From a virus, in IMG/VR virus record IMGVR_UViG_3300034980_000395, positions 1 through 45,484 of that record: a stretch of DNA of 45,484 bases; one strand, given 5' to 3'. This document shows, in pieces, positions 287 through 26,972 of the stretch. Every line of letters starts with the position of its first letter. Within the stretch, counting starts at the first letter, position 1. Below the pieces are notes generated by a model. That model searched no databases. It had not been told where the DNA came from and saw nothing but the letters and a program-made list of their open reading frames with translations. The translations under genes and the position numbers were made by a program.

Positions 287-580
287 GTGGGTCCGTACGA
301 CGAGGCGCTCACAGCGGACGGCTTTGACGAGGCGCTCCTGGGATTTGGGCACCAGTTTACCCATGCCGTCGCCATCTATGACCGGTCGAAATGCCTGGAT
401 ATCCTCATCGCCCGTGACGGCATGACGCCTGAGGAGGCGGAGGAGCATTTTTCCTTCAATGTCGCAGGGGCGTATGTCGGGGATCACACCCCGGTCTTTC
501 TGGAAGTGACGGGATGGCGTGCGCTGGAAGAGACCGCGTATGAGCAGGATGCTATCGCCGACGAGGACCACGCGCGGTGA
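287..580 (+). CDS. Conserved phage hypothetical protein (97 aa)
   Basis: The start is a GTG two bases after the previous stop. The protein is acidic, with a central stretch (about residues 30-65) of the form YDRSKCLDILIARDGMTPEE followed by FSFNVAGAYVG. As I recall, this pattern recurs in many phage proteins of unknown function that regulate or accompany early or packaging genes, but no activity is established. Its TGA overlaps the GTG start of the large-terminase N-terminal ORF (GTGA), which suggests translational coupling. No transmembrane segment is visible. Identification as a real gene is fairly sure; the role is unknown. Confidence 0.7.
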   Translation: MGPYDEALTADGFDEALLGFGHQFTHAVAIYDRSKCLDILIARDGMTPEEAEEHFSFNVAGAYVGDHTPVFLEVTGWRALEETAYEQDAIADEDHAR

Positions 581-1353
581 ATACACCGGACGAAGCGTTA
601 AACGCGATTACGGCCCTCCGCGCAGATCGGGAGTCTGGGAAGTTCTTCCAGTATTTTCCGGACTGCACGTCGGGCTGTCGCACGACCTCGTCGCATCCTG
701 AGGATCACGAGGGCATGTGTCGGGTGCTGTACCGGAAGCACATGGCGTTTTTTGCGTCTCGGGACCGGGAGCGTCTGATGATTGCGGCGAACCGGATTGG
801 GAAGACCCAGGCGGGAGCATATGAGACGACGGCGCATCTGACGGGACTGTATCCGTCGTGGTGGGAGGGTCGTCGCTTTGAGCATCCGGTGTCATTCTGG
901 GCGGTGGGGGATACCTCGAAGACGGTGCGGGATATCGGGCAGTTGGAGTTGATGGGACCGATGAACGCGATTGGGTCGGGGTTTATTCCGCGCCATCTGA
1001 TTGAGCATTTTAGTCGGAAGCCGGGGGTGACGGACGCGATTGAGACGGTATGGGTGAAACATGCCGAGCGGGAGCATGGCGCGCCCTGCCTGTCAGAACT
1101 GGGGCTCAAGAGTTATGACCAGCGGCGGGAAGCCTTTCAGGGGACGCGGAAGCACGGGGTCTGGTTGGATGAAGAGCCGCCAGAGGATATCTATGTGGAG
1201 TGTCTCCTGCGTACGGCCCAGACCTCGGATTTTGCGGGAGGGATGCTGATGCTGACCTTTACGCCCTTGCAGGGGCTGACGCCGCTGGTGCTGGAATTTT
1301 TACCTGGCGGAAAATTGCCGAAGGCGGAGCAGGAGGTTCCCGTCATTGCATAG
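577..1353 (+). CDS. terL: Large terminase, N-terminal ATPase part (split gene)
   Basis: This ORF carries the motor half of a phage large terminase, the enzyme that pumps DNA into the prohead through the portal. A deviant Walker A (ANRIGKT, residues 71-77) is followed by a Walker B with its catalytic glutamate (GVWLDEE, 194-200) and a coupling motif (LTFTPLQG, 226-233). The translation stays homologous-looking up to about EFLPGGKLPKAEQEV and then stops at TAG after five residues. The nuclease half is absent here but starts at 2482 in the same reading frame, so the gene is split by about 1.1 kb. The GTG start overlaps the previous stop. The family call is firm. Whether the two parts work as separate chains or are joined at RNA level cannot be seen. 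Confidence 0.9.
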   Translation: MNTPDEALNAITALRADRESGKFFQYFPDCTSGCRTTSSHPEDHEGMCRVLYRKHMAFFASRDRERLMIAANRIGKTQAGAYETTAHLTGLYPSWWEGRRFEHPVSFWAVGDTSKTVRDIGQLELMGPMNAIGSGFIPRHLIEHFSRKPGVTDAIETVWVKHAEREHGAPCLSELGLKSYDQRREAFQGTRKHGVWLDEEPPEDIYVECLLRTAQTSDFAGGMLMLTFTPLQGLTPLVLEFLPGGKLPKAEQEVPVIA

Positions 1354-1365
1354 CGGCGGGGTGCA

Positions 1366-1404
1366 GGAAGGTACATACCGTAACTTTCGAGGTATATACC
1401 TTCC
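1366..1404 (+). other. Strong hairpin just after the terL N-terminal ORF
   Basis: Positions 1366-1379 pair with 1391-1404 over 14 bp with a single C-A mismatch, leaving an 11-base loop. The hairpin begins 13 bases after the TAG of the ATPase ORF. The bases that follow (CGGTCTTCTTTG) are only moderately T-rich, so this is a doubtful rho-independent terminator. It could equally be an RNA-processing or attenuation element, or the edge of the inserted cassette. Confidence 0.5.
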
Positions 1405-1461
1405 CGGTCTTCTTTGCGACGGCGCGAGAGAAAGACAGACCTGGGGCTGGAGGACACACGT

Positions 1462-1827
1462 ATGGTAGGGCTGACATTTGTGCGTGATTACATAGATGAG
1501 ACAACGATTGACCGGTCGGACTTACCTCACCCCCTTCTTCAGTATGAGGTTATTCGAGTCGTAGATCGGGAGCTCCACCACACAAGGTGTGAACCGACCG
1601 ACCGCTTCGAAGAAGACACGGCCACTCTCGAAACACATGACTACAGGCTGCATTGTATCTGCCGGAGAAACGTGACGCCGAGCGCGATGCCAATAGATGC
1701 CCGTACGAATGTTCACGCCGGAGACGAGTATCGTATTATTCCCGAAAGCCAACTGGAGGAAGAAATTGCACGGGGTCTCTATTCGCTGGCCTTCGGCTGT
1801 TTTGAGGTTTTCCCCGAAAGAGCCTGA
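1462..1827 (+). CDS. Hypothetical 121-residue protein inside the split terminase
   Basis: The frame stays open back to 1414, but the ATG at 1462 has a clear GGAGG eight bases upstream and is the likely start. The product begins MVGLTFVRDYIDE, contains three cysteines and many charged residues, and shows no membrane segment. I do not recognise a family. It is the first gene of the cassette that separates the two terminase halves. Its G+C content and codon look do not differ obviously from its neighbours. It could be a passenger gene, possibly the one that brought the cassette in, but no nuclease motif (GIY-YIG, HNH or LAGLIDADG) is visible. Confidence 0.6.
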   Translation: MVGLTFVRDYIDETTIDRSDLPHPLLQYEVIRVVDRELHHTRCEPTDRFEEDTATLETHDYRLHCICRRNVTPSAMPIDARTNVHAGDEYRIIPESQLEEEIARGLYSLAFGCFEVFPERA

Positions 1828-1928
1828 CGGACCCTAAGGGGATGAATCTGGAACCCGTCACCGAATTGACACGAAACACCGTGTTACAGCACGGAAAATG
1901 ACAGAAAAAGGACCGGAGGACGCAAATT

Positions 1929-2042
1929 ATGCCAAAAGTGGGAAAGAAAACATATAAGAGTGTCACGGCGGCGAAGTCTGCCGCAAAGAAGACCGGGAAG
2001 AAACTCACCTACACCAAGCCAAAGTCAGCTTATTCAAAGTAA
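1929..2042 (+). CDS. Small lysine-rich protein (37 aa), MPKVGKK type
   Basis: This very short ORF has a good ribosome binding site (GGAGG seven to eight bases before ATG). It encodes an extremely basic protein that starts MPKVGKKTYK and is rich in lysine and alanine (KSAAKKTGKK). As I recall, small basic proteins beginning MPKVG occur in many podovirus genomes near structural genes, usually without a known function. Binding to DNA or RNA is a reasonable inference from the charge but is not shown. The next gene starts nine bases after its stop, so they are probably co-translated. Confidence 0.65.
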   Translation: MPKVGKKTYKSVTAAKSAAKKTGKKLTYTKPKSAYSK

Positions 2043-2050
2043 GGAGCGTT

Positions 2051-2305
2051 ATGGGATTTGTTGCAATTGGACTGAAGTTGCTCCCCTACATTGTCTCTGC
2101 CGTAGAAGCGGTCGAGCGGTTAATCCGGACGAAGGGGGAGGAGAAGGAAAATGCGGCGGTGGGCATGGTTCACGCCATTCTGCAAACGGTGGAAGCGGGG
2201 ACCGATCGCGACCTCCTCAATGACGAGGACGTGAATCGCGCCACACGCGACGTGATGCGCGCCGTGGTGGCGTTGCAGAATGTGATTAAGAGCAAGAGTG
2301 TGTGA
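2051..2305 (+). CDS. Conserved phage hypothetical protein (84 aa)
   Basis: The gene has an AAGGAG site four bases before its ATG. The first 20 residues are hydrophobic (MGFVAIGLKLLPYIVSAVEA) and could be an amphipathic or membrane-contacting helix. The rest is a charged helical region that includes VEAGTDRDLLNDEDV and a final ALQNVIKSKSV. Similar small proteins are common in phages but their role is unknown. The TGA overlaps the GTG of the next small ORF. A holin role is conceivable but weakly supported, because there is only one hydrophobic stretch and the lysis genes lie elsewhere. Confidence 0.65.
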   Translation: MGFVAIGLKLLPYIVSAVEAVERLIRTKGEEKENAAVGMVHAILQTVEAGTDRDLLNDEDVNRATRDVMRAVVALQNVIKSKSV

Positions 2306-2472
2306 AGAAACATATTCGGCTTGGGATTCGCCACGCACAAAAGATACAGCACATTGGGCCATGTCCCGTTTGTCGCGGCACCAGTCGTAAACTAAACGGT
2401 GACTGGTGTGATGCGTGTGGCGTTACGGGGCGGTATGATGTGTATGCGAAGCGCAAACTCCAGAAGGAGTAA
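2302..2472 (+). CDS. Small zinc-ribbon protein (56 aa)
   Basis: The GTG start at 2302 overlaps the previous stop (GTGA). The product begins VKKHIRLGIRH and contains two CxxC knuckles, CPVC and CDAC, about 15 residues apart, the signature of a small zinc ribbon. Such ribbons often bind nucleic acid or stabilise small adaptor proteins; the function here is unknown. Its last codons (CAG AAG GAG) supply the GGAG that could serve as ribosome binding site for the terminase nuclease ORF 12 bases downstream, so the two are probably translationally linked. Confidence 0.6.
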   Translation: MKKHIRLGIRHAQKIQHIGPCPVCRGTSRKLNGDWCDACGVTGRYDVYAKRKLQKE

Positions 2473-2481
2473 CTAGCGACT

Positions 2482-3222
2482 ATGTCGAAATTCGTGTGCA
2501 TGGCGGATTGGGACGATGTGCCCCATCTGTCAGAATCGGAAAAAGCTGAACTGATTGAGTCGATTCCTCCGCACCAGCGAGAAGCGCGGACGAAGGGCGT
2601 CCCGCAGTTGGGGTCGGGGGCGATTTTTCCGGTACCCGAAACAGACATTCTCATCGACGACTTTGAGCTTCCGGCGCATTACGCGCGTGGCTATGGCCTT
2701 GACGTCGGCTGGAACTGCACGGCAGCGGTCTGGGTGGCGCATGATCGGGATACGAACATGCGGTATATCTATGCGGTCCATAAGCGCGGTGAAGCGGAAC
2801 CGAGTGTCCATGCGGACGCGATTCGCTCACGCGGAGCGTGGATTCCGGGACGGATTGATCCGGCGTCACGCGGACGCAGTCAGGGTGACGGACGACAGCT
2901 GATTCAGGACTATGTGGATATGGGCCTCTTTTTAGACGTGGCTCCGAATGCCGTGGAGTCGGGACTCCTGGAGGTCTGGCGGTTGCTCTCGACGGGGCAG
3001 CTGAAGGTCTTTGCGTCCTGTAAGACGTGGCTGGAAGAGTTCCGTCTCTACCGGCGGGATCTCAAGGGGCGCGTCGTGAAGCAGAATGATCACTTGATGG
3101 ATGCGACGCGGTATGCGATTGTGTCTGGGGCGACGTGGCTCACGCAGGAACCGGTCACGCAGGAGAAACCGATGTCGCGCTATATGTTTGGATCCACAGA
3201 TCCGTCAGGGTGGATGCACTAA
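2482..3222 (+). CDS. terL: Large terminase, C-terminal nuclease part (split gene)
   Basis: This ORF is the second half of the large terminase. It opens with SKFVCMADWDDVPHLS, the block that normally follows the ATPase coupling region, and continues into an RNase H-like nuclease that cuts concatemeric DNA. The likely catalytic aspartates are D74 (GLDVGW), D126 (RIDPAS) and D207 (NDHLMDATRY). It lies in the same frame as the N-terminal ORF at 577-1353, and the upstream frame is closed by TAA at 2470. The ATG at 2482 follows a rather distant GGAG. Nothing is missing apart from the join, so the two ORFs could together form a complete terminase. Confidence 0.88.
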   Translation: MSKFVCMADWDDVPHLSESEKAELIESIPPHQREARTKGVPQLGSGAIFPVPETDILIDDFELPAHYARGYGLDVGWNCTAAVWVAHDRDTNMRYIYAVHKRGEAEPSVHADAIRSRGAWIPGRIDPASRGRSQGDGRQLIQDYVDMGLFLDVAPNAVESGLLEVWRLLSTGQLKVFASCKTWLEEFRLYRRDLKGRVVKQNDHLMDATRYAIVSGATWLTQEPVTQEKPMSRYMFGSTDPSGWMH

Positions 3223-4112: not shown

Positions 4113-4352
4113 ATGGGCAATGAAACGCTCCTAGAAGAGCGACAATTGATGGTGGAGTCGGCAGTGATGACGCTGTTGCAGCAGGTGGATCTCCCGATTT
4201 TGTTGTCAATGGTCGCGGGAGGCCGGGATCAGTTTGTGGCGCACGCGAAGCGCCATTGGGTTGGACACGGGTTTACCGACGAAGAATTTCGGAACGCCTT
4301 TCGGTTGGTTGAAGATCGGGCGGCAGAAGTGATGCCCACGGAGACGCAGTAA
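4113..4352 (+). CDS. Hypothetical 79-residue protein
   Basis: A small, mostly helical, acidic protein beginning MGNETLLEERQ. The ATG is preceded by GGAG at a suitable distance. It starts three bases after the previous stop, and its TAA overlaps the portal ATG (TAATG), so it is embedded in the head operon. I recognise no family. A short helper of portal or packaging assembly is possible from position alone. Confidence 0.65.
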   Translation: MGNETLLEERQLMVESAVMTLLQQVDLPILLSMVAGGRDQFVAHAKRHWVGHGFTDEEFRNAFRLVEDRAAEVMPTETQ

Positions 4353-6721
4353 TGGCAGATCCCACAGGTGGTGGCTATCAGCGCGTTGCGGAAGAAGTCG
4401 AAGTTGAGGAAACGGTGGATGCCGACACAGCGCAGCGGGAAACAGTCGATGCGTTTCTACGGCTGGCGCATGAGCGGTTTCGGACGGTCAACGATGCCGA
4501 ATCGGAACTGCGCGCCAAGATGCTCGAGGACTTAAAGTTCAGGGCGTCCGACCAATGGCCCGATCACATCCGCTCTGATCGAGAGAAAGACAACCGGCCC
4601 TGTTTAACGATTAACCGCCTCCCGCAGTTTATTCGGCAGGTCACGAATAATCAGCGGGCGTCTCGCCCAGCGGTGGCGGTCAGTCCCACCGGGGATGACG
4701 GCGATCCGGAAATTGCTGAAGTCTTTCAGGGGATCGTGCGTCACATTGAGAATCGCAGTGACGCGGATGTCGCGTATAGCACGGCGGGTGAGCATCAGGT
4801 CACGATGGGGCGCGGGTATGTGCGTGTCATCACGGACTACATTGACGATGACCCGACGCGCCTGGATCAGGAGGTCAAGATCGAGCGCGTGCAGAATCCG
4901 TTCTCAGTGTACGTGGATCCGTCCTCACAAAAACCGGATGGGGCCGATGCGCGGTATGCCTTTATCGTAGAAGACCTTCCCAAAGAAGAGTATCGCGCCC
5001 GATTTCCGGCGTCGCAGATGGCCGCACTCAGCGAATTCACCTCCGCAGGCAACCAGGAGCAGGAGTGGATGCCGGAAGGAAGTATCCGTATCGCGGAATA
5101 CTTCTATATCGAGGAAGAGCGTGAGCAGATGGCGCTTGTGGAGACCATGGAAGGCGTGCGCGTGCGCGTGCCTCGGTCAGCCCTCCCCACAAATGAAGAG
5201 GAGCTCGAATCGTTGACGATTGTGGCCGAACGCGAGGTGGTGCATCGCACGGTCAAGTGGGCGATGATCAATGCGGTGGAAATTCTCGAGGGCGATGACG
5301 AGAAAACGGACGGCACGATCTGGCCCGGACGCTATATTCCGATTGTGCCGGTGCTGGGGGACGAAATTAACGTCAATGGCGTGAAAGATTATCGCGGGAT
5401 CGTGCGTGATTCGCAGGATCCTCAGCGGATGTATAACTATTGGGTCTCGGCGGAGACGGAAATGATTGCACTGGCTCCGCGCGCGCCGTTTGTCGGCGCA
5501 GAGGGGCAGTTTGAGGGACATAGCGAAAAGTGGAAGACGGCAAATGTTCGAAATTACCCCTATTTAGAGTACAAGCCGACAAGTTTGAGCGGTCAAATGG
5601 TGCCGCCGCCCCAGCGACAAAGCTGGGAGCCCCCGATTCAGGCCATGACCATGGCGATTCGCCAGTCGGACAACGATTTGAAGGCGACCGGCGGCTTTAA
5701 TGACGCCAGTTTGGGGGTTCGTGGAGCACAGGAGTCCGGTCGCGCCATTCAGAACCGTCAACAGCAGGATGAGATGGCGAATAGTCATTATCTCGACAAT
5801 CTCGGGCGTGCAGTGCGGCAGGTGGGGCGCATTCTGGTGGATTTGATCCCGAAAATTTACGATACCTCGCGTGTCTTGCGTATTTTGGGCGATGATGACC
5901 AGTCACGCAGCGTGATGGTCTTTGCGGGGGAAGAAAATCAACCGCCTCAACAGCCACAACTCCCCCCCGGCGTCGAGGGCATTTATAACTTGGGCGTTGG
6001 GCGCTACGACGTCACGGTGTCGGTGGGACCGAGTTTCCAGACGCGCCGTCAGGCGGGACTCGATGCGATGGTGCAGTTTGTGCAGGCGTATCCGAATGCC
6101 TTCCCGATGATTGGGGATCTTCTGGCGGACAACATGGATTTTCCTGGCGCGAAACAGCTTGCAGCGCGACTCAAGAAGATGTTGCCAGAGCAATTGCAGG
6201 ACGAGATAGATCCGTCGCAGATTTCACCAGAAGTACAGCAGCATCTCCAGCAGATGGAGGCGCAGTTGAAACAGGTCATGCAGGCGTATGAACAGGCGCA
6301 GCAGACCATTGAAACCGATCGCGTGAAGGAAGGCGCGAAGGTGAAGGTGAAGGAGATGGAGCTTGCGGCGAATGCCGCATCGCAGGAACGTGATACGCAG
6401 GCGCGCATTCAGCTGGAGCAGATTCGGCAGCAGGGTGAAAATGCGCGCGCGTTAGCTAAGGTGGAGCAGCAGCGTGCCAGCGAAGTGCTTCAGGCTGAAA
6501 TTGGCCGCTTAGAGCAGATGATCGGCCAGGATCTCGATGAATCGAATCGGGAACAGGACCGGTATGAGCGGCAACTAGAGCGTCAAGAAGATGCGCAACA
6601 GGCGGCAGCGTCGCAACCGGGAGGACCGCCTCCGCAGGGAGGGCCCCCACAGGGGGGGCCGCAAGGGCCGCCTATGGGGCCGCCTATGGGGCCACCGCCT
6701 GGGGGCGGATTCCCAGAATAG
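4352..6721 (+). CDS. Portal protein, P22 type (789 aa)
   Basis: The portal forms the dodecameric ring at the unique head vertex through which the terminase pumps DNA. The sequence has the hallmarks of the P22-type portal family: an N-terminal DAFLRLAHERFRTV region, KDNRPCLTINRLPQFIRQV at about residues 80-98, and an NPFSVYVDP segment. Length (789) is close to P22 portal (725). Residues from about 615 to 750 form a long Gln/Glu-rich helix that in the P22 family would be the barrel. The last 40 residues are a low-complexity Pro/Gly tail with PPMG and PPQGG repeats, which is unusual. Its ATG overlaps the previous stop. Confidence 0.9.
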   Translation: MADPTGGGYQRVAEEVEVEETVDADTAQRETVDAFLRLAHERFRTVNDAESELRAKMLEDLKFRASDQWPDHIRSDREKDNRPCLTINRLPQFIRQVTNNQRASRPAVAVSPTGDDGDPEIAEVFQGIVRHIENRSDADVAYSTAGEHQVTMGRGYVRVITDYIDDDPTRLDQEVKIERVQNPFSVYVDPSSQKPDGADARYAFIVEDLPKEEYRARFPASQMAALSEFTSAGNQEQEWMPEGSIRIAEYFYIEEEREQMALVETMEGVRVRVPRSALPTNEEELESLTIVAEREVVHRTVKWAMINAVEILEGDDEKTDGTIWPGRYIPIVPVLGDEINVNGVKDYRGIVRDSQDPQRMYNYWVSAETEMIALAPRAPFVGAEGQFEGHSEKWKTANVRNYPYLEYKPTSLSGQMVPPPQRQSWEPPIQAMTMAIRQSDNDLKATGGFNDASLGVRGAQESGRAIQNRQQQDEMANSHYLDNLGRAVRQVGRILVDLIPKIYDTSRVLRILGDDDQSRSVMVFAGEENQPPQQPQLPPGVEGIYNLGVGRYDVTVSVGPSFQTRRQAGLDAMVQFVQAYPNAFPMIGDLLADNMDFPGAKQLAARLKKMLPEQLQDEIDPSQISPEVQQHLQQMEAQLKQVMQAYEQAQQTIETDRVKEGAKVKVKEMELAANAASQERDTQARIQLEQIRQQGENARALAKVEQQRASEVLQAEIGRLEQMIGQDLDESNREQDRYERQLERQEDAQQAAASQPGGPPPQGGPPQGGPQGPPMGPPMGPPPGGGFPE

Positions 6722-18116: not shown

Positions 18117-21100
18117 GTGCCTTTTAGCACCATTGATGCATGGTTTAAGCGTCGCAGGAATCGAGGGTATCTCTCAGCCGTTGAGTCGTTTAATGCTCTA
18201 CGGAATCAGAGATCGTCTCGATCCGGATCACCGGCGCAAACGGGGCGAGATCCCGTTTTCTCCGTTACAACAGAAACGCCTCAGTTTCATGTAGACCCAG
18301 AGGTGTATCGGTCTCGTCAACGACAATACGAGACTTCGTTCTTTCCAAAGCACGATCCTCCTCCTCCATCGCGTTTCGACATGTTGAGTTGGCGTGACGA
18401 GATGCGCCAGCAGGATCCTGAGGTACTCGCAGCACAGCAAGGAGAGCTCGGGGTTGGTCAAAGTGTTGGTGGCTGGGCCAATCCATTTCAGCTTCAGCGC
18501 GGGCCTGGTTTTCCTTTCGTTCATCAAATACAACATATTGACAATAGTGCTATTCCGTTTGAATACGGAACGCCCGAGCGGATTGCCCCAAGAGACACGA
18601 GATGGCCCGACTTTCTCTCGCGTCACCCAGAGATAAATCCTGGCGAGATGTACAGCGCGCTTGAGGGGGCTGGAAATGCGCGGGAGGCGCGGGCTGATCA
18701 GCTAGCCGGAAAGGAAGGGGGATGGGCGTGGCTCGAGGAGAGAATAGAAGATCGTGTTCGTAGCGAACAGGGGCGCAGAGGCAGCGCGCGACGTGGGTAT
18801 AACCGCGACAAAGAGTTTGCGCGCATCGAGGAAAGAGTGCGCAATACGTGGAGGAACTGGCTCGACCCTACAACCCTGAGCGTGTCGCAACTTGAAGACG
18901 TGCAACAGTTCTGGCAGTTAGATCCCGAGTCTGGTAATGCGTTTATGATGCCGCCTAAACCGGGAGCACTTTACCGCACTGATCCCTTTTACAAGGAATT
19001 TCTTCATCGCACACGTCCTGATTTAGTGCGGGAGAGCGGGATATATGATGAAGACGGTCCCATGGGTCGATGGGCGACCTCATCGCCCGGAGAGGCTGCT
19101 GGAGAGGCTTACTATGACAAGTTTCAACAGGATCTCAAAAGTGAATATGAGAAAGCGCTCAAGGATCCGACAAGTCGAGAATTCCTCCAAGAGCAGCAAC
19201 GGCTACAGCGCGTAAACTTCGAGGAGCAGGCGCGGAACCCCGTGATGAATGCCGAGGTTGAGACGTTCGTCCGAGGAAAGTACAAAGAGGCGCGCGACTA
19301 CTTAGGCCGGGGCAAGCCGAAAGAGGCGTTGGCTGCTCTCGAAGAAATTTTCGAGGTGCGTCCCTATGAAGGCGAGGCTCATGCGCTTGAACAACGGGCA
19401 CTGGCCGATCTGCGGCCAGAATGGGAGAAGGGCGGGTGGCTAGGGAGTGGACGTCGAGACAAAAAGGTGCTCGACTGGGCTAAGGATGTCACTATGTGGT
19501 CTCCATGGTGGGAGCGATCGGATCCGTGGACGTCGACAAGAACAGCGACAGTCCCAAAGTCTGAGTTCTTTAGCGTCTTTGACCCAAAGGATGCACCTCG
19601 AAAAATTCTTCAAGGGGAATCGCTAATAAGAAAGTCGCCTGGTTATTCCCAGGAACGGAGAGAAACCGGAGAGGCTCCCAGTCGAGGATATATTCGACCA
19701 GATCGATATGATGCCAAAACGACAGGCCCCCCTCTCTCCGTTGACGAGTTGATACGCTTGCCCGTAGGTGACCCGCTCTTGGTGAGCAAGCGTGAACTCG
19801 GATGGCTTGAGGGCTTCGTCGGCGATACGTCGCAAAACCTGATGGAAATGATATGGGACATTACCTCAGGCGTGGCTTCGATTCCAGAGCTACTGGGGGT
19901 TGGTAGGCTCCCTGTCGTCGGAGAGTCAACAATTAAGGGTTTAGCAAACTATAGGGATTATGCCGATTTCAACGCAGCGGTGATGGCGGAAGGCGTCTCC
20001 AATAACGAAAAGGCGTCTCGGCAGGAGTTGCGGGAGGCAGAGTCGCTAATTGATGTTATGTCGCTTCTTGGGAGAGAAGCTAAAGCGGGAAGCCCGAGAA
20101 CGCTCTGGCGGCTAGTTGTGGGGATGATGCCGTTTATGAAGGCTGCGGGACTCATTACATCGGGCACTCGATACGCGGGACAAGCTGTCGGGTTATCAGG
20201 ACTGAAAGGGGCTGCGGCAACGACAAAGGCAGCGACAAAGGCAGCGACAGCAAATGCAGCGCGTCTCGCACGGGCGCAACAGGCTATGGCATGGGCCGGT
20301 TCAAGCGTTGCCAAGCTCAGGCTGTCTCCCGGTGCTGCTTCGAAGGCGAGACAGTTTGCGTCTGACGCTGGGGCCAATCTGGATAATTGGCTCTTCGCTG
20401 GTTTTGGTGAGGGGGTAATCTCTGGTGGAATGGCGCTCAATCAGATGCGCGAAGCAGCAGGGGGCGAGACGACGCCTCAGGCGCTTAATTGGGCGCGTGC
20501 GTCTGGGTTTGGAGTAGGGGTTCTGGGCGGCGTATTTAATCGCCTGTCTCGAAAATGGGGCATCCACGACTGGGACGACTGGTCAAACACAATGAGCAAG
20601 GCGCGACCAGAAAAGGTGAAGAGCCTTGTTGATGACGCTGCCAGTTTGGGGGCCAGGGAATTTGCAAGACTGAATCCGCAATATGCACCAGCTAGCTTTG
20701 GTCCAGCCGTTGTGATGGGGGCCAAGTCGGCTGGAATGGAGGGAATGGAAGAGTTCGGACAGTCCCTCTGGGAGCAGCTGGCAGACAACATTGCTGGCGG
20801 AAGAGATATGTGGGAGGGCACTTCGCAGGCGGCATTTCTGGGCTTCGTTACGGGGGCGATTTCAGCTGGTGGGCGCACATTTGTGAATCGGGCCGGTCGC
20901 GATGGCCTTGAGGTGGCAGTCACTGATGATTTTGTACACATGAGTGACGATGAGCGGGTTGAGTTTTTGCGCGCATCAGAAAAGATAACTAGCGAACTTA
21001 GAGAAGCGTATAACAATCTAACGAAAGAGCCCGCCGACGTTCCTTCGCTTACAAGAGAAGACGCTGAAAAACTTGGACAAACGCGACTGGTAGACGTGTT

Positions 21101-24100
21101 GAAAGTATCAACACGAAACACTGGCCCAGACGGTCAGCGTGTGCCGATGCGTGCTCGTGTTGAGCAGGGGGTCTCGATTCTCACTGACACTTTGAGTGAA
21201 TTGCAGTCTCGAGTAGAGCAAGGGGGAACACAAGAGGATCGGGCGCTTAATGGAAACAACATTGAAATAGTCAAAGAGGCGCTTGCTTTCGGCAGGCAAC
21301 AGCTTGAACAACCGTTTCTCCCTGCGGGTGATGTTGTTCCTGACGCAGCGCTGACCGAAACCTTCTCCACGAAAGAAGAATCTGATAGGTTATGGAGTCT
21401 ACAGAAAGGCGATCAAGAGCGCCCAGTCGGGAACGCCACGCTTGCGTTTTCGCACGAAGACAGCGACGGCACTGTTCGCTCGTTTGTGCCAACGCCTGAG
21501 TATTTTGAGCAGCTTTTGCGGGAGAACCCCGATCAATTAAAAGAGACGTCGTATGCCGACGTGATGGCCCACGAAGCTGGATTTCACCACGTAGGCAACG
21601 TAACCCCTGGCGAGGGTGAGCGCCTCGTTCGTAACGTGCGTGATCTTGATGCGTCCGGAGAAGTTGATTCTGTAAAGGCCCAGCCAAGCACGGTCGCATA
21701 CTATCGCCTTCTTAAGGCGGACCCATCATTTAGCGAGGAAGAGATTGAGCGGGAATTAGTGGCGCATGAGATCGGAGCGCGTGCGGCTGCTATCCAGATC
21801 GTAAACCTTGAGGCGGGAGACGCTGCGCTTGAAGAGCAGATGGCGCGCGCTGAGGCGGGAAGCGACTTTGGCCAGAATCCCACGCTGATGGCGAAGGGCG
21901 CCCTCGGAATGCACGTCGTGGCGTCCGTGCCCCAAGGGTTCTTGCGGAGGCACAACACCAACGAACCGATCGACAACGTCAGCGGACTTGAGGTTGGCGA
22001 TACGGTGCGGTTTGATGGACGGGAGGCGAAAGTCCTTGATCGGCAGAGTCGCGTAGCAAGCGGCCCAGGACGCGTAAAGTCCACAGCGGACGGGTCCACA
22101 AAGCTCCAATTCAACACAACCATTCAGACGCGGCTTGAAATGATGGACTCCGGCGAGGAAGTTGTAGTCTTGGCATGGGATGATTCATTAAATCAAATAA
22201 ATTATGCAAATACTGGGGACGTTATTGAGCTAAGAGATCATCCAGGTCTCCGTGGTCAGGTTGTTAGTCGCGAGTTGATCGCCGACGTTGATGGCGTGAA
22301 AACGCTGACGCTCACAATAGCTACTGATGGCGGAAAAACCATTAACGTCATTTCCCACGATCGCGAGTCGGTTGCCACGGGGCGACCGCAGCCAGATGCT
22401 GAGGCACCAACACTTGACTCGCCTACTATTAGCGGCGTAGGGACGATGGAGCTTATTGAGTTATCTCGATACATCCTGACGGAAGCGCACCCAGAAGACA
22501 TTCTTGAACATTTTCCTCGCGTTGGTGGCCTCGAACCGGATTCAGTTGCGGAAATTGATCCCCAGCACAAGGAAGGAAAAGCGGCAAAGGATCGACTCAA
22601 GGGCATTCCAGAGGAGGCGATCCAGTCTGTAAAGCACATTCAGATGCCAAAGACGTTTTACGACTTGTTCATGAATGCTTTTGGAAAAAGAGGCGGAGAC
22701 CGATACGCCGCCTTTGTCCCCGTGGCAGGGGTGGAGAATGTCGCAAATGATTACGTCGCCCTTCCGTTTGAGGGATATGCAGAGACTGTCTGGGGGGGGA
22801 AGTATGACGATCATATTACGCCGCTGCAAATGATGATTCAGTTTGCCGAGGCCATTCAAAATCAGACGCTTCTCCAGACACACAGAGACTCCGAACTGGG
22901 CGGCCAGTCAGTTTCCATTCAGGACTTACTGGGAAAAGCAGTAGAACAGTCCGATATCAATGCCGCGTCTGTATTCCTAAGTGTTGTAGGTCGCCAGCTT
23001 CGACATGCGCAGACGGCTGAATTTAAGCTGTCGGCAGAATTGGCTGGAACTCGGTATACGACGCCAGATGGCACGACTGTTGTCGAAGAAACAGACCCCA
23101 TGGTCGTGGCATCCATCGTCGCACATGAACTCGGGCACGTCATTGACTGGATAAGCCACCGCAAGATTGAGCGCAATCAGCCCATGTTAAAGAAGCTGCA
23201 AGGGCTTGCCGGAGTTCAGCCATTTTTTGTTGAAAGAAACAAAATTAAGAATAAAAAGATCGAAGAGGAGCTCACTCAGCTAAGTATGCTGTGGACTCCG
23301 TGGAATCCTGCGACGTCTTCCGATGGCTACAATAGCTATCGGATGCGGGCCTCAGAGAGGTACGCCCAGGCGATGTCGGTAATGCTCGTGATGCCGGAAG
23401 TGGCCGAGACGGTGGCCCCGACATTTTTCAAAGAGTTTTTTAACACACTTGACAAAAAGAAGTCATTTAAGGACTCGTGGAACATTCTTCAGAACGTAAT
23501 ACACGGAGCCCCTCCGGGCCATCCGAGTGCGTTGAACGCGCAAGGGCGCCTCGATGAGAGGCAGATTGAATTAACGATTAAAGACTACGAAACTATTAGT
23601 GACAATTCTCGGAAGGTCTATGAGGAGTTAGCGAAACTGCGTCAGCTTTTTCCGGGAGACACAGTCTGGGAGAAACTTAAGGGTGCGGTTCGCAATCCGT
23701 GGATAGGTAGGGAGTTCTACGACCTGTTCGTTGACCGGCACGGTAAGATTATCCGAAATCACCTAGAGACTGAGAGAAGGCTGAAAAAGAAAGGGCGATC
23801 TATTCCAGATGAGATGAACCCGCTCTTTCTTTTGTCGAGCAAGCCCTATCTCTCTGGTGTTATCAAGGGCTACCTCCTGTCAAACTTCCAATCCATGGCG
23901 ACGCGTCTCGATCGCGCCGGGATCAGTTGGCATCTGTTTGGCGCAATTGTGCAGTACGAAGCAATTAGATCCGGGGGGCGAGAAGGGGTCTGGAGTCCGC
24001 GCGGAGCCACCATGGAACGAGCGGAGAGTCTCCTGAATACCGTGAACGAGGGCCTGACCCCCGATCAGCGAGAGGTGATCAAGGACGCACTGAGGCAATT

Positions 24101-26972
24101 TGACAAGGCAACATGGGAAGTGACCGAAAGAGCATACAACGAAGGGTTTTGGAGTCAGTCTTTTTACGACCTGCTCAAAGAACGAAGACAGCCGCCTGCT
24201 GAAGTAAGAACCATAAGTCCATTTTTGGACACAGATTCAGGGCAATTTTATGCGACGTTCAAGTCATATTATCACCAGTTTGAGGAAACTACGCCGCTCA
24301 TAGAGAGAACGCAAGGCATGATCGAGCCGTCGTCTAATGTTGCCACCGAAACAATGATTAAGATGGCGGTGACATTGCAGGCAATTGAGCGAAATAAAAT
24401 TAAACGCAATGTCGTGAATTACTTCGCCCAACATTTTCCGAATAGCGTAGTGGTTCCCTCGAAAGGTGACAGGCTCCCAGTTCTTGGTCAGAAAGTTAAA
24501 GAAGGCACGCCCATTGAACGTGAATACAATCCAACAAAAGAGGTCGCCGGAGAGATCGTTGGAACAAAAACAACGCTGAAGGCGATCGTCTTTAAGGAAA
24601 ATGGCTATTCGCAGGTTCGCTACGTTGAAGAGTACATCCATGCATCTCTCTCGGATATGCCGTCGAATCAGTTGAAGACGCTGTTCAAGATTCTAAGCAC
24701 GCCGAACAGTAAGGTGTTTCGTCCAGCCTTTACTGTTATGAATCCTGGGTTTATGTCGGTCAACCTTTTTCGAGATTTTTTCCGTGGATGGAAGGCTGAG
24801 TCTCGGAAGGGGCGAAACTTGAGCCTCTATCAGTGGTTTAGGTTTTATCTTAGAGGGCATGGGATTGCGCGCACGCGCGCGTTCGGGCAAAAGCAAAAGC
24901 GCGGAATCCCCTTTTTCGGGGTGTCTCGACTATTCAGCGGAAAGCTCACAGAGGCGCAACAGGAAAAGGCCGAACAAGATCTGAACGATCTCTATAAGGC
25001 GCTCAGTATTAAGGCGCTTGCAATAACCTACAACGATCAAATGCTCGGGGACGAAGGCGAGTATGACGCCAGTCTGCAAACTCTCCATCGGTTTGGCATT
25101 GACATAAATTCGGTTGAAGGCCGGAAAAAGATGTGGAGCGAAAAATTCTTTGGATCGTTTTTCAACATGCTGAAAAAGTCTGGAGATTACATCGAAACGC
25201 TTCCAAAGGCAGCAGCGTTACTGCACGCTGCTGAGTCGGTGAAAGGCGACATCTCTCAGATATCAGCTGAAGATGTGAATTACATTCGAACGCGCATTGG
25301 GAGTCCTGATTTTCTTGCGGGAGGGCTTGCAACGAGGTGGTCAAATCAAGTTCTTCTGTTTTCAAACGCGATGATCCAGGGGTGGCGAGGCGATCTTCAG
25401 ACCATGAAAGACCCAGAGACGCGCGCTGGCTATTGGATGAAAACCATCGGAGCCTCCATCATGCCCAAGGCCCTTATGCTTTTAGCCTATGGCGGAGCCT
25501 TTGGAACGGGCGGAGTTGAGGATGAGCCTGAGGAGCCAAGGTTTGCGGAGGGGCTGCGCCGATGGGGCGGTGGTCTGTGGAGAATGTATCAGTCAGTTCC
25601 GACGTTTGAGCTTTTAAACTTTTTTGTCGTCCCGTGGTATCGGAGTGAGAAAAGCGGCGACGTAGTATATCTGCGTATGCCGCAGGATGACGCTGGTCGC
25701 GTTATTAGCGGCGTGCTTTTTGCGACATTTAAAGCATTGCGCGACAGTTATGACGTGGAGTATCTCACCACGGCTGCCGATATGCGAGAAGACGCAGAGG
25801 GGGTAAGTCCGCTTGGGCAGATTGCCATTGACATGGCGTGGTCTACCCTCATTGGGATTAACTATGCAGGGCAGAGTCTTCCGACTCTCACCCCCTCAAT
25901 AGGCGTCCCGCTCGACATTTACAAGTATTCACAGGCGTCAAATGTTATGGGAGGAGAGGGTCCGGGTCCATATGATCCTTTTCGAGGGCGTCACGTATTA
26001 AGAGAGAGCCAGTTAGATGAAGGGGTCTTTGGCCCGGACGGGCTCTCGGCATGGGGGACTGACCGCTCTGGAGGATCGCTGGCTCCGTTTTTGGGATATG
26101 TATGGAATCAGGTCGGCGGAGGCATTTTCTATCGCTATATCAATCGCACGCAATACTCTAAGCTCGACAAGGATGGACTAGAGCGGTTTATTGAGCTTCC
26201 CGGTCTATCCAACATGAACCGATTCATACGCGCTGGACGGTATGGAGATATCGAAAAAATCAGGCAAGCCCAGGATGTTCCACGCCGATACTCCGCAGCC
26301 ATTCAACATCAAGAACGAGCAGTTTCGGTTGAGGAGGTTCGAAAAGCAATAGACGCAGCGAATAGCGGTGGGATGGGGCAGCGGGAGCGCATAGAGAATC
26401 ACGGTTTTATGATTGCGGAGATTGATGCAACTTTCGCCAATGTAATGGATAGGCTGTATCCCCTCAGTGGAAGTTTTGACTCACAGAACGAACCTCAGGA
26501 CTGGTTATCCGAGGATCGATATAACGTCTCACAGCGATTACAGTTCGGGAGTGCCGTAAAGGAGCTCATCGAGGGAGAGTTTCAGAAAGCCAATGGACAA
26601 GGCGACTGGATGAGGGCCGTCCTGAATGAACCAGTGGGCCGGGGCTTTACGCACGCCAATGCGTTCACGTCTCAAAAAGGAGTAGCGTTAAGCAAAATGT
26701 TCCAGCTGACGCCAGGGGATAGGGAGCGTGCAATTAATGTACTGGCGCTTACGCCATATCAGCAGACGTTTGTGGCTGGGTCTGGCGGTGTGTCTTTTCG
26801 CGCGATAGATTTATTAAATCGCGAAAACGCACAGAGTCTACACCGTGGAATGCGAATACTAGCCGACGAGGCAGAGGATTATGAGCGTAGCAGGCAGCTA
26901 AGATTCATTGAAGACAGCCTCAGAAATCAAATAGAGCAGAAAATTATATTTTATGGGGAGGCGTGGAAGTAA
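18117..26972 (+). CDS. Giant polyvalent-type virion protein (2951 aa)
   Basis: The GTG at 18117 has GGAG six bases upstream; the nearby ATG at 18113 is out of frame. The 8.9-kb ORF is one of the longest possible in a 45-kb phage. Visible parts: a basic N-terminus, a TPR-like pair of helices at about 385-430, hydrophobic Gly/Ala-rich stretches at about 562-603, 662-728 and 875-928, a HEAGFHH element at 1152-1158, a true HExxH zinc-peptidase motif HELGH at 1670-1674, and a C-terminal region from about 2200 with NPGFMSVNLFRDFFRGW, followed by FSNAMIQGW and a hydrophobic helix. The C-terminal part resembles the LPD38-type 'large polyvalent protein' domain. It is probably packaged and injected with the DNA, with peptidase activity possible. 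Confidence 0.75.
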   Translation: MPFSTIDAWFKRRRNRGYLSAVESFNALRNQRSSRSGSPAQTGRDPVFSVTTETPQFHVDPEVYRSRQRQYETSFFPKHDPPPPSRFDMLSWRDEMRQQDPEVLAAQQGELGVGQSVGGWANPFQLQRGPGFPFVHQIQHIDNSAIPFEYGTPERIAPRDTRWPDFLSRHPEINPGEMYSALEGAGNAREARADQLAGKEGGWAWLEERIEDRVRSEQGRRGSARRGYNRDKEFARIEERVRNTWRNWLDPTTLSVSQLEDVQQFWQLDPESGNAFMMPPKPGALYRTDPFYKEFLHRTRPDLVRESGIYDEDGPMGRWATSSPGEAAGEAYYDKFQQDLKSEYEKALKDPTSREFLQEQQRLQRVNFEEQARNPVMNAEVETFVRGKYKEARDYLGRGKPKEALAALEEIFEVRPYEGEAHALEQRALADLRPEWEKGGWLGSGRRDKKVLDWAKDVTMWSPWWERSDPWTSTRTATVPKSEFFSVFDPKDAPRKILQGESLIRKSPGYSQERRETGEAPSRGYIRPDRYDAKTTGPPLSVDELIRLPVGDPLLVSKRELGWLEGFVGDTSQNLMEMIWDITSGVASIPELLGVGRLPVVGESTIKGLANYRDYADFNAAVMAEGVSNNEKASRQELREAESLIDVMSLLGREAKAGSPRTLWRLVVGMMPFMKAAGLITSGTRYAGQAVGLSGLKGAAATTKAATKAATANAARLARAQQAMAWAGSSVAKLRLSPGAASKARQFASDAGANLDNWLFAGFGEGVISGGMALNQMREAAGGETTPQALNWARASGFGVGVLGGVFNRLSRKWGIHDWDDWSNTMSKARPEKVKSLVDDAASLGAREFARLNPQYAPASFGPAVVMGAKSAGMEGMEEFGQSLWEQLADNIAGGRDMWEGTSQAAFLGFVTGAISAGGRTFVNRAGRDGLEVAVTDDFVHMSDDERVEFLRASEKITSELREAYNNLTKEPADVPSLTREDAEKLGQTRLVDVLKVSTRNTGPDGQRVPMRARVEQGVSILTDTLSELQSRVEQGGTQEDRALNGNNIEIVKEALAFGRQQLEQPFLPAGDVVPDAALTETFSTKEESDRLWSLQKGDQERPVGNATLAFSHEDSDGTVRSFVPTPEYFEQLLRENPDQLKETSYADVMAHEAGFHHVGNVTPGEGERLVRNVRDLDASGEVDSVKAQPSTVAYYRLLKADPSFSEEEIERELVAHEIGARAAAIQIVNLEAGDAALEEQMARAEAGSDFGQNPTLMAKGALGMHVVASVPQGFLRRHNTNEPIDNVSGLEVGDTVRFDGREAKVLDRQSRVASGPGRVKSTADGSTKLQFNTTIQTRLEMMDSGEEVVVLAWDDSLNQINYANTGDVIELRDHPGLRGQVVSRELIADVDGVKTLTLTIATDGGKTINVISHDRESVATGRPQPDAEAPTLDSPTISGVGTMELIELSRYILTEAHPEDILEHFPRVGGLEPDSVAEIDPQHKEGKAAKDRLKGIPEEAIQSVKHIQMPKTFYDLFMNAFGKRGGDRYAAFVPVAGVENVANDYVALPFEGYAETVWGGKYDDHITPLQMMIQFAEAIQNQTLLQTHRDSELGGQSVSIQDLLGKAVEQSDINAASVFLSVVGRQLRHAQTAEFKLSAELAGTRYTTPDGTTVVEETDPMVVASIVAHELGHVIDWISHRKIERNQPMLKKLQGLAGVQPFFVERNKIKNKKIEEELTQLSMLWTPWNPATSSDGYNSYRMRASERYAQAMSVMLVMPEVAETVAPTFFKEFFNTLDKKKSFKDSWNILQNVIHGAPPGHPSALNAQGRLDERQIELTIKDYETISDNSRKVYEELAKLRQLFPGDTVWEKLKGAVRNPWIGREFYDLFVDRHGKIIRNHLETERRLKKKGRSIPDEMNPLFLLSSKPYLSGVIKGYLLSNFQSMATRLDRAGISWHLFGAIVQYEAIRSGGREGVWSPRGATMERAESLLNTVNEGLTPDQREVIKDALRQFDKATWEVTERAYNEGFWSQSFYDLLKERRQPPAEVRTISPFLDTDSGQFYATFKSYYHQFEETTPLIERTQGMIEPSSNVATETMIKMAVTLQAIERNKIKRNVVNYFAQHFPNSVVVPSKGDRLPVLGQKVKEGTPIEREYNPTKEVAGEIVGTKTTLKAIVFKENGYSQVRYVEEYIHASLSDMPSNQLKTLFKILSTPNSKVFRPAFTVMNPGFMSVNLFRDFFRGWKAESRKGRNLSLYQWFRFYLRGHGIARTRAFGQKQKRGIPFFGVSRLFSGKLTEAQQEKAEQDLNDLYKALSIKALAITYNDQMLGDEGEYDASLQTLHRFGIDINSVEGRKKMWSEKFFGSFFNMLKKSGDYIETLPKAAALLHAAESVKGDISQISAEDVNYIRTRIGSPDFLAGGLATRWSNQVLLFSNAMIQGWRGDLQTMKDPETRAGYWMKTIGASIMPKALMLLAYGGAFGTGGVEDEPEEPRFAEGLRRWGGGLWRMYQSVPTFELLNFFVVPWYRSEKSGDVVYLRMPQDDAGRVISGVLFATFKALRDSYDVEYLTTAADMREDAEGVSPLGQIAIDMAWSTLIGINYAGQSLPTLTPSIGVPLDIYKYSQASNVMGGEGPGPYDPFRGRHVLRESQLDEGVFGPDGLSAWGTDRSGGSLAPFLGYVWNQVGGGIFYRYINRTQYSKLDKDGLERFIELPGLSNMNRFIRAGRYGDIEKIRQAQDVPRRYSAAIQHQERAVSVEEVRKAIDAANSGGMGQRERIENHGFMIAEIDATFANVMDRLYPLSGSFDSQNEPQDWLSEDRYNVSQRLQFGSAVKELIEGEFQKANGQGDWMRAVLNEPVGRGFTHANAFTSQKGVALSKMFQLTPGDRERAINVLALTPYQQTFVAGSGGVSFRAIDLLNRENAQSLHRGMRILADEAEDYERSRQLRFIEDSLRNQIEQKIIFYGEAWK

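Follow-up and report, generated by a model that had tools for sequence, protein, structure and literature searches.

The gene for the large terminase subunit, TerL, is the hallmark of tailed phages; classification, models of the packaging motor and gene calling treat the protein as a single chain. The closest described relatives of the terminase considered here are the P22-type TerL proteins (P22 gp2, structure 4DKW; D6E TerL, 5OE8; the P74-26 ATPase domain; and Sf6 gp2), in all of which the ATPase and the nuclease belong to one chain. The virus record IMGVR_UViG_3300034980_000395 of IMG/VR, a contig of 45,484 bp whose full length is referred to below as the window, encodes a terminase with the same two domains, the same motifs and the same fold. 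However, the break in its terL separates the ASCE core of the ATPase domain from the helical lid, and does not fall at the linker between the lid and the nuclease. The two halves are very probably products of two independently started genes that would reassemble in trans into a working terminase.

Two open reading frames for one terminase

The coding sequence of the terminase is distributed over two open reading frames (ORFs):

577..1353, + strand: TerL chain A, 258 amino acids (aa), GTG start; ASCE core of the ATPase domain and a short tail.
2482..3222, + strand: TerL chain B, 246 aa, ATG start; last ATPase strand and helical lid (residues 1-42), followed by a complete RNase H-like nuclease.

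These are exactly the two ORFs described in an earlier note on this DNA, which was made from the sequence alone, and profile and structure searches bear the division out. Chain A matches the Pfam family Terminase_6N (7e-11, profile positions 2-151) and carries a Walker A motif (NRIGKT, residues 72-77), a Walker B motif (DEE, 198-200) and the coupling motif TFTP (227-230). Chain B takes up the same profile at positions 167-212, then matches Pfam Terminase_6C (2e-13) and the P22 gp2 nuclease structure 4dkw (4e-26), with the nuclease acids located at D74, E159 and D203. In PHROGs the ATPase half is assigned to phrog_31467, a family of unknown function. The sequence EQEV near the end of chain A is followed by four residues (PVIA) before the stop codon, not by five as was counted earlier.

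The ATPase and the nuclease are thus not found on a single polypeptide in the window but in two ORFs with separate starts; the two share a frame, and 1,128 bp separate the stop of chain A from the start of chain B. The GTG start of chain A overlaps the stop of the preceding ORF (287-580) by 4 bp, and chain B begins 9 nt past the stop of the ORF before it, with the sequence AAGGAG upstream. We infer that the terminase of the window is a variant of the P22-type TerL, the two chains of which would work like TerL.

Position of the break

The earlier note took the break to be at the linker joining the ATPase domain to the nuclease domain, which proved to be wrong. The Terminase_6N profile is divided between both ORFs, which puts the break within the ATPase domain, ahead of the lid, and not at the ATPase/nuclease boundary. 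A fused relative (L015) was modelled by AlphaFold from an alignment comprising fused proteins and split halves, with a mean predicted local distance difference test (pLDDT) score of 88.5; all AlphaFold models reported here are of single chains. In the L015 model, the split point corresponds to a lower-confidence loop at about residues 229-241, between the helix that follows the TFTP strand and the strand 242-247, and the ATPase domain extends beyond this loop to about residue 283. In structure comparisons, the ATPase part (residues 25-283/290) matches the ATPase domain of P74-26 with a Z score of about 20, while residues 283-466 match the P22 nuclease with a Z score of 25. Chain B is accordingly predicted by the model to carry the strand 242-247 (L015 numbering), the two lid helices and the whole nuclease; the name lid for this two-helix segment follows the usage for D6E TerL (PMC5727402). 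Chain A of the window, modelled alone, reached a pLDDT of 89 and has a disordered tail. In the fused relatives the same two points are joined by a short variable linker, and by this comparison the halves in the window miss nothing, as had been supposed from the sequence.

Occurrence of the split among relatives

Relatives were gathered from viral contigs, prokaryote genomes and annotated phages. Both halves were readable in 291 related loci, of which 121 are split and 170 fused, the split falling at the same point throughout; the non-redundant set of 214 loci differing by at least 10% comprises 91 split and 123 fused loci. The search for relatives with the same split, suggested in the earlier note, was therefore productive. 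Relatives with a continuous terL, which the note had held to speak against a genuine split, exist as well, but they stand beside very many split loci, including those of cultured isolates.

Every close relative (79-86% identity) that has both halves is split, and the gaps in these loci measure 132 to 1,472 bp and differ in gene content. At the extremes found over all split loci, the halves overlap by 35 bp or lie 3,885 bp apart; in 48 of the 91 non-redundant cases the gap is 20 bp or less, the two genes lying back to back or overlapping. Back-to-back pairs occur, for example, in split prophages of Kushneria aurantia (L231) and Acidovorax (L189). The commonest overlaps among these 91 loci are of 4 bp (19 loci, most often ATGA) and 8 bp (10 loci). 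Twenty-one split loci sit on RefSeq isolate contigs of up to 1.8 Mb, for example in Azospirillum cavernae (1.79 Mb contig), Sphingomonas melonis, Halomonas and Litchfieldella, and the complete circular phage MW202785 has two genes, each annotated as large terminase. An assembly error is excluded by these many split relatives, the cultured isolates and the circular phage included. EBPR podovirus 1 looked split in the first match list, but its gp39 is one fused TerL and it was rejected as a split case.

Some of the relatives have further peculiarities. The gap between the terminase halves of L135 (4594-7354) measures 2.8 kb and contains genes on the minus strand that encode 168 and 512 aa. The contig L038 carries two terL loci (688-2192 and 4929-6391), the nuclease of the second being broken across two frames. 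An intein-like insertion is present in the nuclease domain of L013 (731-3181; LMDA/CLVGE...VVHN/TRY), and large intein-like insertions were found in the ATPase half of L040 (5020-6639), L043 (4660-6516) and L049 (3067-4962), the last two of which are split as well.

Independent starts and selection on both halves

A start codon occurs exactly at position 1 of the chain B model in 59 of the 91 split loci, compared with 2 of the 123 fused loci, and within -2 to +5 aa of the chain B start in 84/91 and 27/123, respectively. Where split loci contain passenger genes between the halves, chain B starts -20 to +25 nt from the stop of the preceding ORF in 31 of 43 cases, a spacing that would be expected in an operon and with which the 9 nt in the window agree. 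The tails of chain A differ in length and sequence even among close relatives.

Residues N72, G75, D198, E199, T229 and P230 are invariant in 91/91 split loci, and the nuclease acids are retained at D74 in 91/91, at E159 (or D) in 88/91 and at D203 in 89/91. The Walker A, Walker B and TFTP motifs and the nuclease acids are equally conserved in split and fused loci. In both halves, changes at third codon positions outnumber those at first positions about threefold and those at second positions four- to sixfold. These patterns point to purifying selection acting on both halves, with their catalytic residues intact.

Covariation of the lid with the ATPase

In split loci, the identity of the lid correlates with that of the ATPase encoded by the other gene (r 0.58, partial 0.55) much more closely than with that of the nuclease to which it is joined (r 0.26, partial 0.13), with a bootstrap range of 0.17-0.44 for the difference. 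Segments of equal length taken from inside the nuclease domain show the opposite pattern. The loci L120 and L028 are 75% identical in the ATPase and 76% in the lid, and 37% in the nuclease; in this pair, in L181/L170 and in others, nuclease types recognised by the signatures DHP and NTA have been swapped while the lid and the ATPase are unchanged, and the recombination border falls at the lid/nuclease boundary. The covariation of lid and ATPase indicates that the border between the genes does not coincide with that between the modules and that the lid evolves with its partner on the other chain, a pattern that fits docking in trans. A freer exchange of ATPase and nuclease in split loci was also considered; raw correlations were 0.38 in split and 0.67 in fused loci, nearest-neighbour pairs showed no difference (p 0.32), and such an exchange is not claimed.

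Evolution of the split

Parsimony required 29, 28 and 37 changes between the fused and split states on the concatenated, ATPase and nuclease trees, respectively, against about 69 with shuffled labels. When nodes with Shimodaira-Hasegawa (SH) support below 0.9 were collapsed, at least 24, 17 and 21 changes remained. The exact number is soft, since the count falls to 4, 2 and 3 when only nodes with SH support of at least 0.99 are retained. An IQ-TREE tree of 100 diverse sequences needed 24 fused/split changes, and a single origin, with all split sequences in one clade, was rejected for these 100 sequences by the approximately unbiased (AU) test (p-AU 1.65e-6). Judging from these trees, this family of terminases seems to have gained or lost the split on many occasions. 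The tree tests do not separate fission from re-fusion; because TerL is usually fused, as it is in the most distant relatives found here, fission was likely the first step, with later changes in either direction.

Gap contents and neighbouring genes

The gap had been described as a cassette of about 1.13 kb with at least three small genes, and within its 1,128 bp four ORFs were called by inspection. These and other features around the terminase genes are as follows:

1462..1827, + strand: passenger ORF of 121 aa (137 aa if started at TTG, position 1414), no family match; GGAGG about 8 nt 5' of the ATG.
1929..2042, + strand: passenger ORF of 37 aa, very basic (MPKVGKKTYKSV...), read from the sequence.
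2051..2305, + strand: passenger ORF of 84 aa, conserved in loci of relatives.
2302..2472, + strand: passenger ORF of 56 aa with two CxxC pairs, zinc-ribbon-like, weak match to phrog_11137; overlaps the 2051-2305 gene by 4 bp.
1366..1404, no strand assigned: 39-bp hairpin just 3' of the chain A stop, with a near copy in L003.
287..580, + strand: upstream ORF, phrog_13182; a homologue lies within the gap of L006.
4352..6721, + strand: P22-type portal protein (E 2e-172), the docking partner of the motor.

The 84-aa gene is found in the gap of most of the close relatives, with seven such loci named (L002, L003, L004, L005, L007, L008 and L011), and upstream of terL in L010, and it has a higher share of amino-acid-altering changes than terL. 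A holin identity for its product reached E 0.06 only and is not claimed. Since a homologue of the upstream ORF 287-580 lies in the gap of L006, genes are exchanged between the gap and its flank. The gap genes of other loci are assorted, single members among 68 gap ORFs scanned matching the HipA (one ORF), GroES, endonuclease VII or HNH families. Family profile searches recognised no homing endonuclease in the gap of the window, and a homing endonuclease was rejected as a general cause, endonuclease VII/HNH-like matches being found in only a few of the 68 ORFs. With its assorted and shifting genes, the gap reads as an ordinary phage gene boundary with passengers, not as an intron.

The near copy of the hairpin in L003 (3498-3536) is inverted and located 18 bp before the start of chain B, at the other end of the gap, while the exact 19-base core of the hairpin was present in no other viral contig searched. 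The element may be a mobile palindrome or may act as an RNA signal.

Chain B is followed by two small genes, the P22-type portal gene and then the genes for the scaffold and the major head protein. No end repeats were found in the 45,484-bp contig. A single ORF of 2,951 aa (18117-26972) occupies about one fifth of this 45-kb podovirus-like genome.

A probable two-chain terminase and alternative explanations

Of the two possibilities raised in the earlier note, a terminase of two chains or a gap removed from the RNA, the first is supported, and splicing is disfavoured by the Rfam searches, the gene overlaps, the separate starts and the mobility of the gap genes. We therefore consider a two-chain terminase, reassembled in trans, to be very likely. 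Two polypeptides would be translated separately from the two genes: chain A, the ASCE core through the helix that follows the coupling motif TFTP, and chain B, comprising the last ATPase strand, the lid, the linker and the RNase H-like nuclease. By docking in trans on chain A, the first 42 residues of chain B would restore one TerL subunit; five restored subunits, seated on the portal, would drive DNA translocation and cleavage in the normal way. A break at this point would be tolerated because it lies in a variable surface loop. The opened junction would then serve as a gene boundary, with small passengers entering and leaving, and the genes at 1462-2472 would not be parts of the motor.

Some observations weigh against this explanation. 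The Shine-Dalgarno sequence of chain B in the window lies 12 nt from the start codon, which is distant, and the retention of passengers is not accounted for by two chains. The correlation between lid and ATPase could partly be explained by a recombination hot spot at the lid/nuclease border and by linkage rather than contact.

A wider proposal is that two-chain terminases represent a standing alternative design of the packaging motor, repeatedly selected at one loop, in which the lid-nuclease chain docks reversibly on the ATPase core. This is conceivable, although we rate it as doubtful. If it were true, the coupling of the lid stroke and the cutting by the nuclease could be dosed or swapped apart from the ATPase.

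It is very improbable that chains A and B act apart, as a separate ATPase and a separate nuclease that form no composite subunit. Such an arrangement would agree with the separate genes and with the prediction that chain A folds alone, but chain A is without the end of the ATPase domain, and the lid required by the ATPase sits on chain B and co-varies with chain A. Moreover, the halves always occur together and in many loci neighbour the portal gene, and fused forms are frequent.

An unrecognised self-splicing intron holding the gap genes, which would yield a spliced mRNA and one chain as for terL of Bastillevirinae or ICP1, is very improbable. Introns in terL do occur in other phages (PMC11878797, PMC10448857, PMC3322345), and the window formally permits an in-phase junction, but this neat splice, pointed out in the earlier note, is a coincidence. 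The common frame holds in the window by chance only, being lost in the close relatives L002 and L006 (from the listed starts). Rfam group I and group II intron models gave no match in the window at the gathering threshold, none at E<=5 over positions 1250-2600 and none in 20 split relatives, in keeping with the intron core not having been seen earlier; the sole Rfam result of the searches of the window, the gap and the 20 split loci was a tRNA outside the gap. In about half of the split relatives the genes are adjacent or overlapping and leave no room for an intron, and neither the tail of chain A nor the gap content is homologous between relatives whose TerL proteins are 79-86% identical. Chain B has its own start codon, which the continuation of an exon would not, and passenger genes are found outside the gap in relatives.

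A broken terminase (pseudogene) or a misassembled contig might be suspected in a metagenomic virus record such as the window, but this explanation is effectively refuted by the occurrence of the split in 121 loci from independent data, 21 isolate genomes among them, and by the purifying selection and retained catalytic residues of both halves. Ligation of the translated halves in trans by a split intein is hardly credible even though inteins occur elsewhere in relatives of this terL (L013, and the insertions in L040, L043 and L049), because tails past the conserved end of chain A (median 0, maximum 36 residues) and a chain B that mostly starts at the conserved strand leave no room for intein halves.

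Comparison with known systems

A search of open-access papers turned up no description of such a two-gene TerL, which is weak evidence of absence. Published models differ on how movement of the lid couples ATP hydrolysis to DNA translocation (PMC5727402). The natural division before the lid provides a ready dissection of the motor, with chain A being available with or without the lid and chain B with or without the core, and models of lid coupling become directly testable through the separate chains. Surveys based on terL will miss or miscall phages with a split terminase, as the assignment of the ATPase half to phrog_31467 illustrates.

Interruptions of terL by about 1 kb, as in the window, are known from Bastillevirinae (PMC11878797), ICP1 (PMC10448857) and Campylobacter phage IBB_35 (PMC3322345). 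However, those genes are spliced or intein-bearing, whereas in the window no ribozyme is found and the halves have independent starts. The terminase large subunit of herpesviruses, UL15 (PMC3079670), is likewise encoded in two pieces with genes between them and a gap content that varies with lineage; it is spliced at the mRNA level through GT-AG sites, while the phage halves read as separately translated genes. The split DNA polymerase of the OM43 phages MEP401 and MEP402 (PMC10580990) resembles the window in having two ORFs with a small unknown ORF between them, but it concerns another enzyme in two phages, and the mechanism was left open by the authors.

Essential enzymes made as two chains with intervening sequence, as proposed for the window, include the products of Aeh1 nrdA, with mobE inside, the T4 topoisomerase, with mobA, and Aeromonas 43A/43B. 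Aeh1 NrdA is fully active, and 43A and 43B of the Aeromonas phages co-purify with activity (PMC2988022). Each of these cases is confined to a single lineage and associated with either a homing endonuclease or an untranslated spacer. The terL split differs in that the gap of the window has no recognised endonuclease, half of the split loci are free of any insert, and the division is found in many lineages at one point.

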